Source of the DNA: Holdemania massiliensis AP2
GTDB taxonomy: Bacteria > Bacillota_I > Bacilli_A > Erysipelotrichales > Erysipelotrichaceae
Assembly: GCF_000327285.1 (NCBI RefSeq)
Contig: NZ_HE998568.1
Coordinates: 390,810-454,809, forward strand
Length of the DNA: 64,000 nucleotides
Direction of reading: 5' to 3'
Position numbers and translations under genes: made by a program. Each line of letters opens with the position of its first letter. The first letter of the stretch is position 1. Shown piece after piece: positions 57,543 to 64,000 of this stretch. The notes beneath the pieces are model-generated. The model was not told the DNA's origin. It did no database searches and saw nothing but the letters and a program-made list of their open reading frames with translations.

Positions 57543-58092
57543 ATCAGACTGCATGGACAAATCGATCACCTTTACCCTTCAGGACGTGGAGTTGGCAGAA
57601 GCCTATCAGTTTCTGGCTTCCCTGCTGCCCCGCAATAAAACGCGGTATCTGGCGATAAAGCTGAGCATTCCGATCCTGGCTCTTTTCACCCTGATCTATT
57701 TCCATGGCGCTTCCACGCTTTTAGGCTGGATCCTCACCCTTGGACTCAGCGTCTTATGGATTTTAAAAATCAGCCGCTGGCTTTGGACAATCTATCTGCA
57801 TAACCAAGTCAGCGGGCTGTTCAAAGAAACGCTGGCCAACGCCCGATACATTCCGGTAACCGCGGTCTTCAGCGATGACATTCAAATTGCAGGCCAGACG
57901 CTGACCTATTCGGATATCCAACGCATAGTCCCCCTGGCTCATACGCTGTTGTTCTTCCATGCCCCGCATCAGATGTTTATTCTCCCTTTGCGGGTACTGG
58001 GTGAAGCACAAGAAGTTGAGGCTTTCTGTCGGGGAATTCTGAAACGGCAGGCATCGGAGGCCGCAGAAAAAGAAACAAAGGAGGAATGCTGA
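57532..58092 (+). CDS. YcxB-like membrane protein in the PTS operon
   Basis: 186 residues from the ATG at 57532, overlapping nanE by 11 bases, with ACAGGA upstream. Two membrane helices about 48-85 (IPILALFTLIYFHGASTLLG, WILTLGLSVLWILKI), then a YcxB-like domain with SDDIQIAGQTLTYSDIQRIV and FFHAPHQMFILPLR. Role unknown. Its place between nanE and the IIA gene, with tight spacing on both sides, suggests a part in the PTS's membrane function. Confidence 0.75.
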   Translation: MRNKSDCMDKSITFTLQDVELAEAYQFLASLLPRNKTRYLAIKLSIPILALFTLIYFHGASTLLGWILTLGLSVLWILKISRWLWTIYLHNQVSGLFKETLANARYIPVTAVFSDDIQIAGQTLTYSDIQRIVPLAHTLLFFHAPHQMFILPLRVLGEAQEVEAFCRGILKRQASEAAEKETKEEC

Positions 58093-58500
58093 ATGATTCA
58101 AATTCTGATCGTCACCCATGGGCCGCTGGCCGAAGCGCTGAAAGTCAGCGCCGGAATGTTTTTTCCCCAGGCCTCTGACATAACAGCCCTCAGCTTAAAT
58201 CCGCAGGATAATCCGCTGGAATTAAAAGACCGGATTGTCGCGGAAGTCCGCAAAGTGAATGAAGGCGACGGCGTGCTGATCTTTGCCGATCTGTTCGCGG
58301 GAACGCCCTGCAACATGACAGCCTTGGCGCTGACTGAACTTTCCGACATTCCAATTCAGTGTTTAGTCGGCGTCAATCTGCCGTTAGTGATGGAGGCGCT
58401 GGGCTCCCTGAATTCGATGGATCTGCATGCGCTGACCGCTCATTTAACCCAGATCGCCGCCGATACTATATTGGATCTGCGGGCAAAACTGGAGTTATAA
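58093..58500 (+). CDS. PTS system, mannose-family IIA component
   Basis: 135 residues. VTHGPLAEALKVSAGM has the phospho-accepting His (residue 9), and ADLFAGTPCNMTAL and ANLPLVMEAL-like blocks complete the EIIA-Man fold. Starts directly after the YcxB-like stop with AAGGAGG in that stop region. Completes a IIB-IIC-IID-IIA system. Confidence 0.93.
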   Translation: MIQILIVTHGPLAEALKVSAGMFFPQASDITALSLNPQDNPLELKDRIVAEVRKVNEGDGVLIFADLFAGTPCNMTALALTELSDIPIQCLVGVNLPLVMEALGSLNSMDLHALTAHLTQIAADTILDLRAKLEL

Positions 58501-58505
58501 TTCAG

Positions 58506-58536
58506 GCTCCTGTCTGAAAATCAGACAGGGGCTTTT
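58506..58536 (+). terminator. Terminator of the PTS operon
   Basis: GCTCCTGTCTGA and TCAGACAGGGGC pair around two bases of the A-rich loop, followed by TTTTC. It lies just past the IIA stop. Confidence 0.9.
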
Positions 58537-58551
58537 CTATCCTTTTCCATA

Positions 58552-58588
58552 AGAAAACGGCATAGCTCAAACAAACGAACTATACCGT
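58552..58588 (-). terminator. Terminator of the merR gene
   Basis: On the minus strand ACGGTATAG pairs with CTATGCCGT (one G-T) and runs into TTTTC. It lies about 75 bases past the merR stop. Confidence 0.65.
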
Positions 58589-58662
58589 GGAGTCAAAACA
58601 TAATTTTTTTGCAATCTGAGCCTTAAATCTGAATATCAGCCGAGTTTTCGCTCTCCTTTTAA

Positions 58663-59025
58663 TCAGGGATGACATTCGGCATTGCGTTCATAGGCAGCGA
58701 TTTTATAATTCAAGCGTTCCAACGTCTTGTTCATTTCATCCAGTCTTTCAATCAGCTGCTCCCGCTGTTCGATCAGCAGCCGTTTGCGGGCCTCAATTGT
58801 TTCATCCCCCTTTTGGAATAACGCTACATATTCGATCAGCACTTCAATCGGCAGGCCTGCCTGACGCATACATTTGATAAACTCTACCCAGCGGCAGTCT
58901 TCCTCAGTATAATCGCGAATACCGCTGGCTGTGCGGTTGACTTTAGGAAGCAGTCCTACCCGTTCATAATAACGCAGCGTGTCCTGTGTGAGATTGTATT
59001 TTTTACTGACTTCCGCAATATTCAT
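58663..59025 (-). CDS. MerR-family transcriptional regulator
   Basis: 120 residues from the ATG at 59025, after AGGAGGG; a longer open frame has no start signal. N-terminal HTH: MNIAEVSKKYNLTQDTLRYY and ERVGLLPKVNRTASGIRDYT. Coiled coil about 80-110 (EQREQLIERLDEMNKTLERL). A single Cys close to the C-terminus does not form a metal site, so it belongs to the effector/redox-sensing MerR proteins. Downstream of the aldo/keto reductase by 49 bases; matching MerR-type promoters at 60263 and 63220 are its likely targets. Confidence 0.92.
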   Translation of the reverse strand: MNIAEVSKKYNLTQDTLRYYERVGLLPKVNRTASGIRDYTEEDCRWVEFIKCMRQAGLPIEVLIEYVALFQKGDETIEARKRLLIEQREQLIERLDEMNKTLERLNYKIAAYERNAECHP

Positions 59026-59074
59026 ACCTTTTAATCCCTCCTGTTCCCTTTGATTATGCTTCACTGCAAACTGA

Positions 59075-60223
59075 TTATTTGCCGAATACAGCCGCGGCTT
59101 GACGCATGTTCTCCGTGACCTCCACATCAAACGGACAGCGTTTTTCACAGGCATGGCAGCCGATGCATTCAGAGGCAGTGTGTTCCAGAACCGCATAGTG
59201 TTCCCGGACGGTTTCTGGCATCCCGCTCTGAGCTTTCACCAAATTTAAAAATTTTGTCACTGTGGCGATGTCGATCTCCATCGGACATGGAGCGCAGTGA
59301 CCGCAGTACATACAATGGCCTTTCCAGCTGATTTTCGGGAAGGACGCCAGCGCCGAAGCATAATCCCGTTCTTCCTTACTGGCGGTTTCATAAGCAACAC
59401 TTTGGCGCAGCTCTTCAACCGTATGCGCTCCCGGCAGCACGGTCGCAACGCCGGGACGGGTCAGGGCATAATGCAGACACTGAATCGGGGTCAGAGCTTT
59501 GCCTGCCGGCGACAGGCTCTCATCCAATAAATCTCCGCCGCCAAACGGTTTCATAACGGTGATGCCCACGCCTTTGCGCTGGCATAATTCATACAGCGCC
59601 TCGCGCTGCGGATCCATGTTCACCAATGGTTTTGCATAGCTTTCATCCGCCCATAAGGTTTCGATATCCTCACTTCCCGGCTGCAGGTCATAGCAGGGAT
59701 TTACGCTGAACATCAGCACTTCGATCAAGCCGCTTTCCACTGCTTTGATCGCCGCTTCCGGATTATGGCTGCTTAAACCGATATGTCCGATCCGGCCTTC
59801 TTTCTTCAGCTGCAGCGCATACTGCATCACCGGTCCCTCGGCAATTTCCTGCCAGTCCTTCAAGGAATCCACATAATGGATCATGCCGACTTCCACATGA
59901 TCAGTATGCAGCTGAGTCAAACAATCCTCAAATCCAGCCCGTACTTCTTCGACCTTCCGCGTGCGCTTATATTGACCGTCGATCCACACGGAACACAAAT
60001 GAGCCTGAATAATAAACTGATCCCGCCGTCCTTTCAGGGCTTCGCCGAGGTGATGACGGAGGTTGGGATCAGGAGAATACAGATCAAAATAATTGATTCC
60101 CGCCTCCGCTGCCGCATCCACCAAAGCATAGGTGTTCCGGCCTTCTTCTTCCGTAAATCCTTCACAGCCCAAACCAATCTCACTGACTTTCAGGCCTGTG
60201 CTGCCTAATGTACGATAGATCAT
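59075..60223 (-). CDS. Aldo/keto reductase with C-terminal 4Fe-4S domain
   Basis: 382 residues. AKR barrel (RTLGSTGLKVSEIGLGCEGF, YFDLYSPDPNLRHHLGEALK, GHIGLSSHNPEAAIKAV, GVGITVMKPFGGGDLLDESL) followed by a ferredoxin-like tail with CMYCGHCAPCPMEIDI and CIGCHACEKRCPFDVEV. The usual AKR Lys position reads IIQAHLC, as seen in this Fe-S AKR subgroup rather than as damage. Likely an anaerobic oxidoreductase coupled to ferredoxin. Transcribed from the MerR-type promoter at 60263, with merR as second gene. Confidence 0.9.
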   Translation of the reverse strand: MIYRTLGSTGLKVSEIGLGCEGFTEEEGRNTYALVDAAAEAGINYFDLYSPDPNLRHHLGEALKGRRDQFIIQAHLCSVWIDGQYKRTRKVEEVRAGFEDCLTQLHTDHVEVGMIHYVDSLKDWQEIAEGPVMQYALQLKKEGRIGHIGLSSHNPEAAIKAVESGLIEVLMFSVNPCYDLQPGSEDIETLWADESYAKPLVNMDPQREALYELCQRKGVGITVMKPFGGGDLLDESLSPAGKALTPIQCLHYALTRPGVATVLPGAHTVEELRQSVAYETASKEERDYASALASFPKISWKGHCMYCGHCAPCPMEIDIATVTKFLNLVKAQSGMPETVREHYAVLEHTASECIGCHACEKRCPFDVEVTENMRQAAAVFGK

Positions 60224-60262
60224 CTTTGCTTCCTCCTGTTTTTCTAACGATTTCCTGCTTTT

Positions 60263-60293
60263 ATCGTAACTCTTAGAGCTGGCTCCAGGTCAA
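60263..60293 (-). promoter_or_regulatory. MerR-type promoter of the Fe-S aldo/keto reductase-merR unit
   Basis: On the minus strand TTGACC (60288..60293), 19-base spacer, TACGAT (60263..60268). The spacer holds a dyad with CCTGGAG and CTCTAAG. The 19-base spacing is the hallmark of MerR-activated promoters. Confidence 0.75.
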
Positions 60294-60362
60294 GCTTTTT
60301 TTATTGTAAAAATGATAAAAGAATACTTTTTCTTTATCTTGATCGAACAGAGTAAAGTCTGC

Positions 60363-60779
60363 TTACGCTCTGCATTTCAATTCCAGCATCTTCTGAACAT
60401 CGCGAAACTGAGCTTCATTGGTTACCCGATAATGCAGCCAGCCGCCGTCCCCGCAAGGATATTTCTTATCAATGCAGGCTTGCGTTTCCTGTTCAACTTG
60501 ATAATAGATCTGCGCAAATTGTTCGTTCGATAAGCGAAGCATCACCGTCAACGAATCTGTTTCCGCAAAAACATTGCAGATCAGTTTTTTCTTTTTTTTA
60601 TGAGCGACTGCCCAGCCATAGTGATTCCCATAGGGAAAGCAAATCGTCTGTACCGTGCCGCAAACGGCAGACAGCAATTCATTGATTTGAATAAACAACG
60701 CACGGCTTTTACCGCAAGTTTCCGCCATCTCCTCAAATGTCGGTGTATTCAGCTTATCGAGCATTCTTTCACCCATCAT
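60363..60779 (-). CDS. DUF3788-family protein
   Basis: 138 residues after GGAGGA (an adjacent ATG at 60776 is also possible). The pattern GWAVAHKKKKKLICNVFAET, LTVMLRLSNEQFAQIYYQVE and GGWLHYRVTNEAQFRDVQKM fits DUF3788, small soluble proteins of unknown role that look like DNA-methyltransferase-repair or lipid-binding scaffolds in different hands. No operon partner is obvious. Confidence 0.75.
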   Translation of the reverse strand: MMGERMLDKLNTPTFEEMAETCGKSRALFIQINELLSAVCGTVQTICFPYGNHYGWAVAHKKKKKLICNVFAETDSLTVMLRLSNEQFAQIYYQVEQETQACIDKKYPCGDGGWLHYRVTNEAQFRDVQKMLELKCRA

Positions 60780-60946
60780 GATTCCTCCATTTCACGGGTT
60801 CCCCAGCTTGAAATATTGGTTAAGCTCAAGATCTCTCTGAGCTTATCTTAGCCGTGGAAGCAGAATTGATCAAGGCCGATCATAAAAAATATATCAAAAA
60901 GGATGCAAGTTTCACAGTTGCCGCCTTAGTCTCCTTGCTTTATTGA

Positions 60947-61435
60947 TCATCCCAGCTCAATGTAAGTTTCTCTGGAATCAAAGAAGACTTTGATCTGCTG
61001 GATCGTAAAATGAATAACTTTGAAATCACCGCCGAACATTCCCTCTGGATACCAATCGTTCAGCTCACTTCGCCATGATTTTCTAATATACGCTTCCCGC
61101 TGCTCAAACTCCGCCTGCCCCTGCAGCATCACTCCGCAGACCGATTCCTCATCAAAAATAATACCGGTCACCTGCTTGTTCGACTTTAAATACTGACAAA
61201 ATTCCGCGTTCTCATCGGTATTTATCCAGATTTCCTTCCCATTTTCAACAAAGTTGATATACACCGCTTTGGAAATAATCATCCCCTTTGGGGAAGGATA
61301 GGAACAGACCATCGTCTTTTTGCGCTGCAGAAGATCTGTAAAAACATCCATTCTTTTTCTCAGTTCTAAATCTGAACATTCCTGATTCTTAATCCATTTT
61401 CCTTGAATCCATTTTTTATCTTCCAATACCTTCAT
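60947..61435 (-). CDS. Pyridoxamine-5'-phosphate-oxidase-like flavin protein
   Basis: 162 residues after GGAGGAGAGGG. Split-barrel marks: LQRKKTMVCSYPSPKGMIIS, GKEIWINTDENAEFCQYLKS, VTGIIFDEESVCGVMLQGQA. Such proteins bind FMN, F420 or heme and reduce small molecules; the exact substrate is not evident. Its upstream region carries no clear MerR-type promoter. Confidence 0.85.
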   Translation of the reverse strand: MKVLEDKKWIQGKWIKNQECSDLELRKRMDVFTDLLQRKKTMVCSYPSPKGMIISKAVYINFVENGKEIWINTDENAEFCQYLKSNKQVTGIIFDEESVCGVMLQGQAEFEQREAYIRKSWRSELNDWYPEGMFGGDFKVIHFTIQQIKVFFDSRETYIELG

Positions 61436-61544
61436 TGTCTTTCCCTCTCCTCCTTCTTATCTAACCTTTGTCCATGAGAACTCAGGCTCATCTGTTTCTC
61501 GAATCCATTATACCGTCCCTTTTCAGTTCTGTCCTGACAATTCA

Positions 61545-61580
61545 AAACAGGTTCAGCGATGTTATCTGCTGAACCTGTTT
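61545..61580 (-). terminator. Terminator of the ECF/DUF3842 operon
   Basis: AAACAGGTTCAGC and GCTGAACCTGTTT form a perfect 13-bp stem with a 10-base loop; GTTTTG follows on the minus strand. It lies about 50 bases past the stop of the gene at 61633. Confidence 0.75.
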
Positions 61581-61632
61581 CTCTTTGAATTCCGATTGAC
61601 AAAGCTCCTAGGAAAAGAATAGACCTGTTATT

Positions 61633-62139
61633 TTACAAACGAGCTAAATCGATTGCGTAAGCTTGTAAAATCACTCTGTATGCTGGATGTTCCTGACGCC
61701 GATAAACGTCCGAATGATGCACTGCGCCGCCTGGATAATTCGTTAGCCAAGTTTTCCATGTCCGTTCATCAAACGGCATTTTTCCTCGCTGCGCCAGATT
61801 TTCCAATTCTTTCAGCTTCATTTGAAATGCGGCTTCACGGCCTTGATGCCGTTGAGCCGTATGCAGCATGGCTTCAAAGATGGCTTCCGCCTGAGTCGGT
61901 TTTAATCCGGCTAAATGCAGCCGCACCAAACCATTGCCAAGTTCATCCCAGGACCGCACGCGGGGACGATCCGTATTCGCTTCGATCTCCTGCTTGAGAA
62001 ATTCCAGCATTCCCTGCGCATCGCCAATCAGATGCTCGCAGCCGAATTCGTTTTGATAAATCAGCTTGACTGCATCCTGCGGCTGCATTGCGGGATAATG
62101 CGCGGCATGCCAAAGCAGGATGTCCGTCAGTTCACTCAC
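61633..62139 (-). CDS. Uncharacterised protein linked to an ECF S component
   Basis: 168 residues from the GTG at 62139, which overlaps the ECF stop (GTGA). The longer frame to 62238 reads through the ECF gene and is a shadow there. The body has DAVKLIYQNEFGCEHLIGDA and WKTWLTNYPGGAVHHSDVYR; no family recognised. Conserved-looking Cys/His residues may bind a ligand. Coupling to the transporter subunit suggests it processes the imported compound. Confidence 0.6.
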   Translation of the reverse strand: MSELTDILLWHAAHYPAMQPQDAVKLIYQNEFGCEHLIGDAQGMLEFLKQEIEANTDRPRVRSWDELGNGLVRLHLAGLKPTQAEAIFEAMLHTAQRHQGREAAFQMKLKELENLAQRGKMPFDERTWKTWLTNYPGGAVHHSDVYRRQEHPAYRVILQAYAIDLARL

Positions 62140-62651
62140 GCCAGCTTCGCCTTCTGCAAGGCATAAACCACAGCCGGCAGGATCAGCAGCTGCAGAAGAA
62201 TACCCGGCAGCGCCGTTACGAAGGACGCCGTCATCCACATTTGAATGGAATACGCCCCAGCTCTAAAAATCAGTGCGTTCATCAATCCATAAACGATCCG
62301 TCCGCCGATCATCGCTGTGACAAGCGCGGCATACAGATTGATCATCGGTTTTTCCGTCTTCATCACTTTGATCATGATTCCGGCAAGCAGGCCATAAACC
62401 GCCAGCTCGCAGATCATGCTTGGCAGATACGCCGGACCCGGCATCCCGGTAACCAAGGACGACAGCACCGGTGTGAAAATTCCGCAGATCAAGCCCAAGA
62501 TCGGACCGCAGATCAGACCGCAAAGCAAAACCGGAATGTGCATCGGCAGCATCACGCTGCCGGCATTGGGAATGACGTGAAAGGCCATTGGAAGAACAAC
62601 GCCTAAGGCCATACATAAAGCCGTAATAATCAAATGTTTCGTATTTTTCAT
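62136..62651 (-). CDS. ECF transporter S component
   Basis: 171 residues, about six membrane segments. MKNTKHLIITALCMALGVVL and GSVMLPMHIPVLLCGLICGP match substrate-binding S components of energy-coupling-factor vitamin importers; the latter segment is reminiscent of thiamin-type S components but not decisive. It has no A/T components here and would use a shared module elsewhere. Second gene of a unit led by the DUF3842 gene (114-base gap with a hairpin in it). Confidence 0.85.
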   Translation of the reverse strand: MKNTKHLIITALCMALGVVLPMAFHVIPNAGSVMLPMHIPVLLCGLICGPILGLICGIFTPVLSSLVTGMPGPAYLPSMICELAVYGLLAGIMIKVMKTEKPMINLYAALVTAMIGGRIVYGLMNALIFRAGAYSIQMWMTASFVTALPGILLQLLILPAVVYALQKAKLA

Positions 62652-62765
62652 CTTTGTTTTCTCCTACTCAAAAACAACAGTGCTCTGCCGCATGGAAACC
62701 TTCGTGATTTCCGCATTCGCTTTTTGTTTCTGGTTGGAACGACATTTCAGCTTCTGCCGAAAACA

Positions 62766-63191
62766 TCAAACAGCAAGTCTTTCCAGGATCAGGCCGGCAG
62801 CCTTTTCAATCAGCTCGTCGACAGAACAATCCTGAACCCCAGCGATCAGAATTCCGCAGCGGTTTAAAGGGATTAAGACCTTTTCCGCATCGCTCTGTCC
62901 GATCACCGCCGCCATCTTCGGAGTGATTTCACCCAGCATCGAATCGGCTACGACAAGGGAAGCCGGACCGGCAATCACCGCCGCCCGCCGGGCAGCGACT
63001 AAAACCGGATTTTCTCCGGTTGCGCCCTGCCGCGCTTTTCCTTTCAGCATCGTTGAAGTTGCAGCGCTGTTGGTGCCCAGGGCCAACAGATTCAGTTCAG
63101 GATTGCACTCCAGCAGCCGATCACACAATTTCCGGCCGATCATCCCGCCCTGTCCGTCAATGACCACGACCAGCGGTGTTTTTTCTTTCAT
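62766..63191 (-). CDS. DUF3842-family protein
   Basis: 141 residues. VVVIDGQGGMIGRKLCDRLL, ALGTNSAATSTMLKGKARQG and ATGENPVLVAARRAAVIAGP form a small nucleotide-binding-like fold named DUF3842. Often next to vitamin transporters, as here. Transcribed from the MerR-type promoter at 63220; first gene of the DUF3842-ECF-61633 unit. Confidence 0.88.
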   Translation of the reverse strand: MKEKTPLVVVIDGQGGMIGRKLCDRLLECNPELNLLALGTNSAATSTMLKGKARQGATGENPVLVAARRAAVIAGPASLVVADSMLGEITPKMAAVIGQSDAEKVLIPLNRCGILIAGVQDCSVDELIEKAAGLILERLAV

Positions 63192-63219
63192 CGCAATCCC
63201 CCTTATTCTGTTCTCTATT

Positions 63220-63250
63220 AGATTAACACCTGAAGCTGGCTCCAGGTCAA
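63220..63250 (-). promoter_or_regulatory. MerR-type promoter of the DUF3842-ECF unit
   Basis: On the minus strand TTGACC (63245..63250), 19-base spacer, TAATCT (63220..63225). The spacer dyad ACCTGGAG/CTTCAGGT matches 7 of 8. The whole GCTGGCTCCAGGTCAAGC core is identical to that at the promoter at 60263. Confidence 0.75.
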
Positions 63251-63327
63251 GCTTTTTTTGAAAAAACGATCAATTGGAAGGTGTTATGCTGGCTCAAATG
63301 TCCTTTGTCTTCCATTTTATTAAAAGA

Positions 63328-63375
63328 AAGAAAAAATCGGATCTCAGTTCAGGAAGTTCCTGCTTTATCCGATTT
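63328..63375 (-). terminator. Terminator of the gene at the right edge
   Basis: AAATCGGAT and ATCCGATTT enclose a 24-base partly foldable loop, followed by Ts on the minus strand. It lies 15 bases past the stop of the gene at 63391. Confidence 0.7.
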
Positions 63376-63390
63376 CTTATTACAAGCTTC

Positions 63391-64000
63391 CTATACAGGC
63401 CGATCCTTGCTTTCCTCCCGTTGATCAGCTGGCTTCGTCTTCGCTTTGAACACAAGCTCATAGCGAGTATTGTAATACAGCCCCAAATCCTCGCATATCC
63501 GCTGATTCATGCGGTCCAGCGCTTCATGATAGGTCTTGTAGGCAGGCGAAAGGGCGATCATGCTGGGAATGAAAATATCATTGTAGCCGCAGTCCTGCAG
63601 CTGTTTCATCAATTTGCGCTGAGCTATAAAGGCCGGATGATATTTCATCGGAAAGCTCGTTTTCAGTTTAACGCCCTGCAATACTTGTCTTTTCAGTTTC
63701 TCGTAATCCTGATCACTGAGTTCAATCATCTGCTTCATCTGATTCTCCATCTTTTCAGCCTGACTGAACGCTTTATCCCCGCCCAGCTTATATTGCACAA
63801 AGGAAATCAGACGCAGCAACAATGGAATTTTAATGGAAACCGAATCCCAAAAGGCCAGGATCCGCTGATAGGCAGCCTGCTGCTGAGGCGTTGTGATCCG
63901 GATCTGCAGATACGGCATGAAGTGATGCATGAAATAGTACCCGGTAAAACCCGGAAACATATCCCGCATCGCCTGTGCAATTGTTTCATAGTCTATCGTC
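63391..64000 (-). CDS. Unrecognised protein, cut by the window edge
   Basis: At least 202 residues. Codons to the very edge (TIDYETIAQAMRDMFPGF) are open, so the start lies to the right of the window and the ATG at 63969 is internal. The visible part is soluble and helix-rich, with MHHFMPYLQIRITTPQQQAA, DKAFSQAEKMENQMKQMIEL and AFIAQRKLMKQL. No family recognised. It is followed by its own terminator. Confidence 0.7.
   Translation of the reverse strand, partial: TIDYETIAQAMRDMFPGFTGYYFMHHFMPYLQIRITTPQQQAAYQRILAFWDSVSIKIPLLLRLISFVQYKLGGDKAFSQAEKMENQMKQMIELSDQDYEKLKRQVLQGVKLKTSFPMKYHPAFIAQRKLMKQLQDCGYNDIFIPSMIALSPAYKTYHEALDRMNQRICEDLGLYYNTRYELVFKAKTKPADQREESKDRPV

Follow-up and report, generated by a model that had tools for sequence, protein, structure and literature searches.

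An NmlR/AdhR-like MerR regulator and a conserved promoter-operator suggest a regulon of aldo/keto reductase, DUF3842-ECF-S, and DUF362 genes in Holdemania, with a possible link to the nickel-pincer nucleotide

The closest described relatives of the regulator considered here are the NmlR and AdhR proteins of the MerR family, which respond to formaldehyde or methylglyoxal; Cys52 is the redox/aldehyde cysteine of AdhR (PMC4776306). On the metabolic side, the nearest described system is that of lactate racemase, LarA, in which His174 is catalytic, Lys184 tethers the nickel-pincer nucleotide (NPN), and His200 is a nickel ligand. About 15% of genomes contain larB, larE, and larC and lack larA, which implies that unknown NPN-binding proteins must exist (PMC11796402). 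The DUF362 proteins belong to the same Pfam clan as LarA (PMC11770544).

The window, i.e. the whole 64-kb stretch of Holdemania massiliensis AP2 DNA analysed here, contains two operons preceded by similar promoters; all genes and sites given below for the window lie on the minus strand. As originally predicted, an 18-base core, GCTGGCTCCAGGTCAAGC, has exact copies at 60278-60295 and 63235-63252; no further copy with up to three mismatches is present in the window. Dinucleotide shuffles give an expectation of 0.04 for this core, two matches being reached in 1 of 100 shuffles. The promoter/operator of the AKR-nmlR operon (60263..60293; TTGACCTGGAGCCAGCTCTAAGAGTTACGAT) reads TTGACC-TGGAGCCAGCTCTAAGAGT-TACGAT, with the -35 box at 60288-60293 and the -10 box at 60263-60268, and that of the DUF3842-ECFS-orfX operon (63220..63250; TTGACCTGGAGCCAGCTTCAGGTGTTAATCT) reads TTGACC-TGGAGCCAGCTTCAGGTGT-TAATCT, with boxes at 63245-63250 and 63220-63225, 28 bases from the DUF3842 start codon. 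Both thus show the TTGACC, 19-base spacer, and TAnnnT that had been claimed for them. The half-sites form the dyads GAGC-CA-GCTC and CCTGGAGC-CA-GCTTCAGG, whose centre lies 7-8 bases past the -35 box in both sites, filling the 19-base spacer; the published spacer and dyad centre of MerR-family operators match those of both sites (PMC5045206). No riboswitch or other known RNA was found above gathering score in 58000-64000.

The first gene of the AKR-nmlR operon (59075..60223) encodes an aldo/keto reductase (AKR) of 382 aa with a C-terminal 4Fe-4S domain, matching PF00248, Fer4_17, and Fer4 over cut-off. Inside the same operon, 49 bases downstream of the AKR gene, lies the predicted MerR gene (58663..59025). 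It encodes an NmlR/AdhR-like protein of 120 aa, with PF13411, PF00376, and PF09278 over cut-off, which consists of a MerR HTH and a short dimerisation helix, without a large effector domain. The NCBIfam model NF041849 (NmlR) fits it best by far, with 147.7 bits for a cut-off of 175, and because this cut-off is not reached we file the regulator as NmlR-like rather than as NmlR. It is the sole close NmlR relative among the 21 MerR_1 matches of the genome, the next being 30% identical. Cys52 (AdhR numbering) is present in the window regulator and in most orthologues, and missing in two of them (L039 and L048) in the orthologue alignment.

The second operon starts with a DUF3842 gene (62766..63191; 141 aa, PF12953 155 bits), whose AlphaFold model is Rossmann-like (pLDDT 85.8); a structure search returned UbiX and low-molecular-weight phosphatases as top matches, none with E<=0.001. 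Next comes an ECF transporter S component (ECF-S; 62136..62651, 171 aa), which matches PF12822 with 66.8 bits (gathering 30.7) and PF07155 over cut-off. Comparison with the PDB gave no useful match as to its substrate, and no dedicated ATPase for the S component is encoded in the operon. The last gene, orfX (61633..62139, 168 aa), has a GTG start overlapping the ECF-S stop, and its product belongs to no family of Pfam or NCBIfam. Its AlphaFold model is very confident (pLDDT 96.9) and matches no PDB structure with E<=0.001, so orfX may have a new fold; its sole sequence match in the PDB, a cytochrome trimer construct, was taken as chance. The orfX family comprises 123 candidate loci, mostly in Clostridia, where fusions of orfX to a P-loop kinase are frequent; the closest PDB match of this kinase is a protein without characterisation. 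Of 80 orfX loci, 31 have a recognisable ECF-S and 11 a DUF3842. At five loci (L116, L123, L130, L131, and L166) a MerR HTH, orfX, and the P-loop kinase occur in one protein, a regulator joined to the enzyme of a pathway that may be its own. Between the two operons of the window lie a DUF3788 gene (60363..60779) and a PNPOx-like gene (60947..61435). As neither is found in this interval in two congeners (G002 and G003), the segment 60363-61435 looks like an insertion, and both genes are probably outside the regulon.

We searched the whole genome (3,811,476 bases) for further sites. With up to three mismatches, the 18-mer TTGACCTGGAGCCAGCTC is found in the two window copies at 0-1 mismatches and in two others at 3. 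Near-exact cores thus occur only at the two window places, and the many unrelated copies that had been named as counter-evidence to a shared regulator are not seen. A degenerate pattern of dyad and -10 box has three exact matches, namely the two window sites and a perfect NmlR-type site at C1:1238029, on a contig other than that of the window, upstream of a DUF362 gene. Another NmlR-type site, with 2 mismatches, lies at C1:1524080 (L089 7081-7111) upstream of a MATE exporter, with another MerR gene about 2.2 kb away. The reversed-pattern control had no matches in the whole genome. The regulator's own promoter carries the dyad between -35 and -10 in a spacer of 19 bases, as expected of the NmlR/AdhR subfamily (19-20 bases). 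Other MerR loci of the genome are without the site, except for the locus overlapping the DUF3842 site. The two-operon regulon of the original prediction appears too small: it would be extended by DUF362 and probably by the MATE exporter.

The sites were compared in three congeners, H. filiformis DSM 12042, Holdemania sp. Marseille-P2844, and an uncultured Holdemania (G001). In the first two, both window sites and the DUF362 site stand out as near-identical islands in diverged flanks. Within each of these genomes, the two window-type sites differ from one another at a few positions, with dyad and spacing intact, which means that the 18-base identity overstates the constraint common to the two sites. 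With 2 or fewer mismatches allowed, these two genomes (G002 and G003) have exactly three sites each, the same set as the window genome. In G001, ECFS-orfX-AKR-MerR are fused into one operon behind one site, and DUF362, a flavodoxin, and a MATE exporter also have sites upstream; the one before the MATE gene has 1 mismatch. In another genus (G009), two sites in divergent orientation stand before the MerR operon and an ECFS-orfX-kinase operon, and DUF362 is preceded by a third. In family f2, nmlR adjoins DUF362 in three genomes (G040, G045, and G058), and in a fourth (G044) the DUF362 gene, the AKR gene, and a larE-DUF3842 operon each have a site.

These comparisons bear on the possibility that the common core arose by a recent local duplication and has no role in regulation, as two identical 18-mers 3 kb apart might suggest. 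The identity does not extend beyond the promoter, congeners conserve each of the two sites separately, the third perfect site is on another contig, and in another family the pattern recurs in front of the same genes. We thus regard a duplication as refuted by the cross-genus pattern and by the confinement of the identity to the promoter, and give it hardly any credence.

A second question is which MerR protein acts at 63220..63250. Directly upstream of the DUF3842 operon, on the same strand, lies a second MerR-family gene encoding a protein of 314 aa with a full MerR HTH; its C-terminal part occupies 63391..63999 of the window, and the rest, including the HTH, lies beyond the window edge (C2:454932-455135). 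It is kept at that position in G002 and G003, and from its location could be taken as the regulator of this operon instead of the NmlR-like protein. Its own promoter, however, carries a different dyad (TTGACCCGGACGCCGCGTCCGGGCTTATACT and TTGACCCGGACGCGACGTCCGGGCTTACACT in G002 and G003, TTGAGTCAGACGCGGCGTCCGGGTTTATACT in the window genome), a GC-rich GGACGC/GCGTCC operator with a 19-base spacer that is conserved in three Holdemania, and its HTH is just 36% identical to that of the NmlR-like protein. In addition, the ECF-S promoter has an NmlR-type site in both G001 and G009, where nmlR is in or beside the operon. Since its own operator differs, we rejected the 314-aa protein as the regulator of the DUF3842 operon, and consider this assignment very unlikely.

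The presence of the site follows that of the NmlR-like regulator. At 99 loci of DUF362, AKR, DUF3842, and ECF-S, we looked for a site (3 mismatches or fewer) in the 1.5 kb upstream. This test counts sites to about 1.2 kb upstream as operon promoters, and a direct-promoter test would be stricter. The site was found at 32 of the 44 target loci from genomes with this MerR and at 1 of the 55 from genomes without it (Fisher p 6e-15, two families). Outside the genus, the corresponding counts were 17/27 and 1/55 (p 8e-10). The genomes are related and the counts not independent, such that these p-values are inflated by common descent; the co-occurrence nevertheless has a clear direction. The reversed-pattern control gave 0 matches in 152 kb at the target loci. 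Conversely, 16 of the 17 MerR orthologues with at least 50% identity have a site (up to 2 mismatches) inside their 3.3-kb locus. The content of the regulon varies, since the site upstream of ECF-S is missing in four genomes (G089, G127, G248, and G259), though their MerR is 53-58% identical, and MerR-bearing genomes lack it at 4/13 AKR and 4/11 DUF3842 loci.

Taken together, it is very probable that one NmlR/AdhR-like MerR protein controls AKR-nmlR, DUF3842-ECFS-orfX, and DUF362, with the MATE exporter as a probable further target. The proposal that a single MerR protein governs both window operons is supported by the conserved sites, the fused operon, the divergent sites of G009, the co-occurrence with MerR, and the differing operator of the neighbouring regulator. 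The 120-aa protein is predicted to bind the dyad TTGACYTRGAGYNNRCTYYARG-NNN-TANNNT between -35 and -10 and, by the mechanism of its family, would activate these promoters by untwisting their over-long 19-base spacers. At least three transcription units, AKR-nmlR, DUF3842-ECFS-orfX, and DUF362, would then be switched on together, probably along with the MATE exporter. By analogy with the family, the trigger is probably an electrophile, an aldehyde, or another thiol-reactive signal sensed via Cys52. As these genes stand together in clusters or fused operons in other genera, the targets appear to form one metabolic module, whose chemistry we infer below.

Gene neighbourhoods in related genomes point to the NPN cofactor. 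DUF3842 is found in larE/larB/larC operons or clusters at several loci (L281, L299, L340, L341, L342, L343, and L267-L269). The operon of G044 reads larE-DUF3842-cbiM/nikM-Q-O-larB-larC, with LarE (269.5 bits), LarB (305), LarC1 (204), and LarC2 (154) all above cut-off; the start of this operon is shared by G054 and G057, and related arrangements occur in G040, G045, and G025. In G056, a cluster DUF362-AKR-AKR-DUF3842-larE-larB-larC1-larC2 brings these genes together, and similar clusters are present in G049 and G051. In the window genome, the DUF362 protein (PF04015) has H138, K148, and H164, which a profile comparison aligns without gaps and with identical spacing to H174, K184, and H200 of LarA, and which are conserved in 18/18, 18/18, and 17/18 sequences, respectively. 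The alignment of DUF362 with LarA by hhalign has an E-value of 0.003 and a probability of only 10%, so the argument rests on the motif and not on the score. At the DUF362 motif corresponding to that of His108, the second catalytic histidine of LarA, no equivalent of this residue was seen by eye, the hhalign match covering only residues 123-281; Arg74 is kept.

In the window genome, the Lar_N domain (PF09861) has no match with E<=0.001 and the best LarE match has 38 bits for a cut-off of 150; LarE is likewise below cut-off in G001, G002, G003, and G009. Among 60 relatives, LarE is above cut-off in 14, none with a LarA match above cut-off, and LarA is found in 6, none with LarE; the window genome, G001, G002, and G009 have neither. 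In G024 and its genus-mate G184 (L332 and L345), a Crp-type regulator with ECF-S behind it lies divergently to larA-larD (MIP); in G024, where LarE was searched, none is above cut-off. LarE and ECF-S seem to exclude each other, with both in only 2/60 genomes (p 0.015), a figure on which we do not rely as the ECF-S search was a sample that maybe did not reach every genome. Two Mediterraneibacter MAGs also have a LarA homologue (L142 9422-10492 and L143 9377-10501), at a distance of about 3 kb from an ECFS-orfX-kinase pair.

We tentatively propose, with somewhat less than even confidence, that the regulon is a MerR-controlled module for the salvage and use of NPN. ECF-S would import NPN or its dephosphorylated nucleoside, orfX and the P-loop kinase would handle or phosphorylate it, DUF3842 would be an accessory protein shared with NPN biosynthesis operons, and DUF362 would be a non-LarA NPN enzyme working with the Fe-S AKRs. 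The absence of a larE match above cut-off in Holdemania suggests that the ECF-S importer may salvage an NPN-type cofactor. In this respect, the "vitamin-type importer" of the original prediction could not be established: ECF-S reaches 35.3 bits and its G009 orthologue 35.1 for the TIGR04518 (FolT) cut-off of 60, and the neighbourhoods suggest the nickel-pincer cofactor instead.

The same regulator could also control a plain carbonyl/redox stress regulon without any NPN link, in which the AKR and the MATE exporter detoxify and ECF-S takes up a common B vitamin that stress makes necessary (folate, riboflavin, or B6). Such a regulon would fit the known signals of NmlR/AdhR proteins, formaldehyde or methylglyoxal (PMC4776306), the presence of MATE and flavodoxin among the targets, and the matches of ECF-S to PF12822, PF07155, and, below cut-off, FolT. 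Nevertheless, related genomes have DUF3842 and DUF362 as members of lar operons, ECF-S lies beside larA-larD in a larE-less genome, and the TIGR04518 cut-off is not reached. We see this as a serious possibility, if a somewhat doubtful one.

The role of the regulon appears new. From the coincidence of two sites in common gut bacteria emerges a probable regulon of genes of unknown function, namely DUF362, DUF3842, orfX, and an ECF-S without known partners in a vitamin pathway. In the open-access literature, we found nothing on DUF3842, no paper linking DUF362 to a MerR regulon, and no description of a cofactor source for larA without larE. DUF362, with its Lys/His triad as in LarA, is a concrete candidate for the NPN-binding protein of genomes that have larBCE and lack larA. 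For genomes with larA and without larE, a concrete candidate for the cofactor source is the ECF-S found next to larA-larD. If true, the NPN salvage-and-use module would name both the missing NPN-using enzyme and the missing source of the cofactor.

Compared with the AdhR (YraB) regulon of B. subtilis and the NmlR regulons of Neisseria, Haemophilus, and Streptococcus (PMC4776306), the Holdemania system also has a short MerR protein with Cys52 that is predicted to control its own operon, an oxidoreductase as predicted target, and a MerR-type promoter with an over-long spacer; in this likeness, spacer and dyad come from the window analysis and the signal from the literature. The known targets of AdhR/NmlR are adhC/adhA, estD, yraC, and yraA, whereas those predicted in Holdemania are the Fe-S AKR, DUF362, DUF3842, ECF-S, and orfX, and the Holdemania regulator scores under the NCBIfam NmlR cut-off. 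With the lactate racemase system of Lactiplantibacillus plantarum (larA, larB, larE, larC, and NPN; PMC11796402, PMC11770544), the module shares a DUF362 protein of the LarA clan with equivalents of His174, Lys184, and His200, the DUF3842 that relatives have inside larE-larB-larC operons, and the ECF-S that is divergent from larA-larD in G024 and G184. It differs in that the Holdemania genome lacks both a larE match above cut-off and any larA match, and in that DUF362 has no LarA domain match and apparently no equivalent of H108 (judged by eye, the alignment covering only 123-281). The larA-larD/ECF-S loci of G024 and G184 have a Crp-type regulator, whereas the Holdemania module has a MerR. 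Finally, as in the group II ECF vitamin transporters (FolT, RibU, PdxU, and others), the S component is of the PF12822 type and has no dedicated ATPase in its operon; unlike these, the Holdemania ECF-S is under predicted MerR control and is paired with DUF3842 and with orfX, which elsewhere is found as a kinase fusion.
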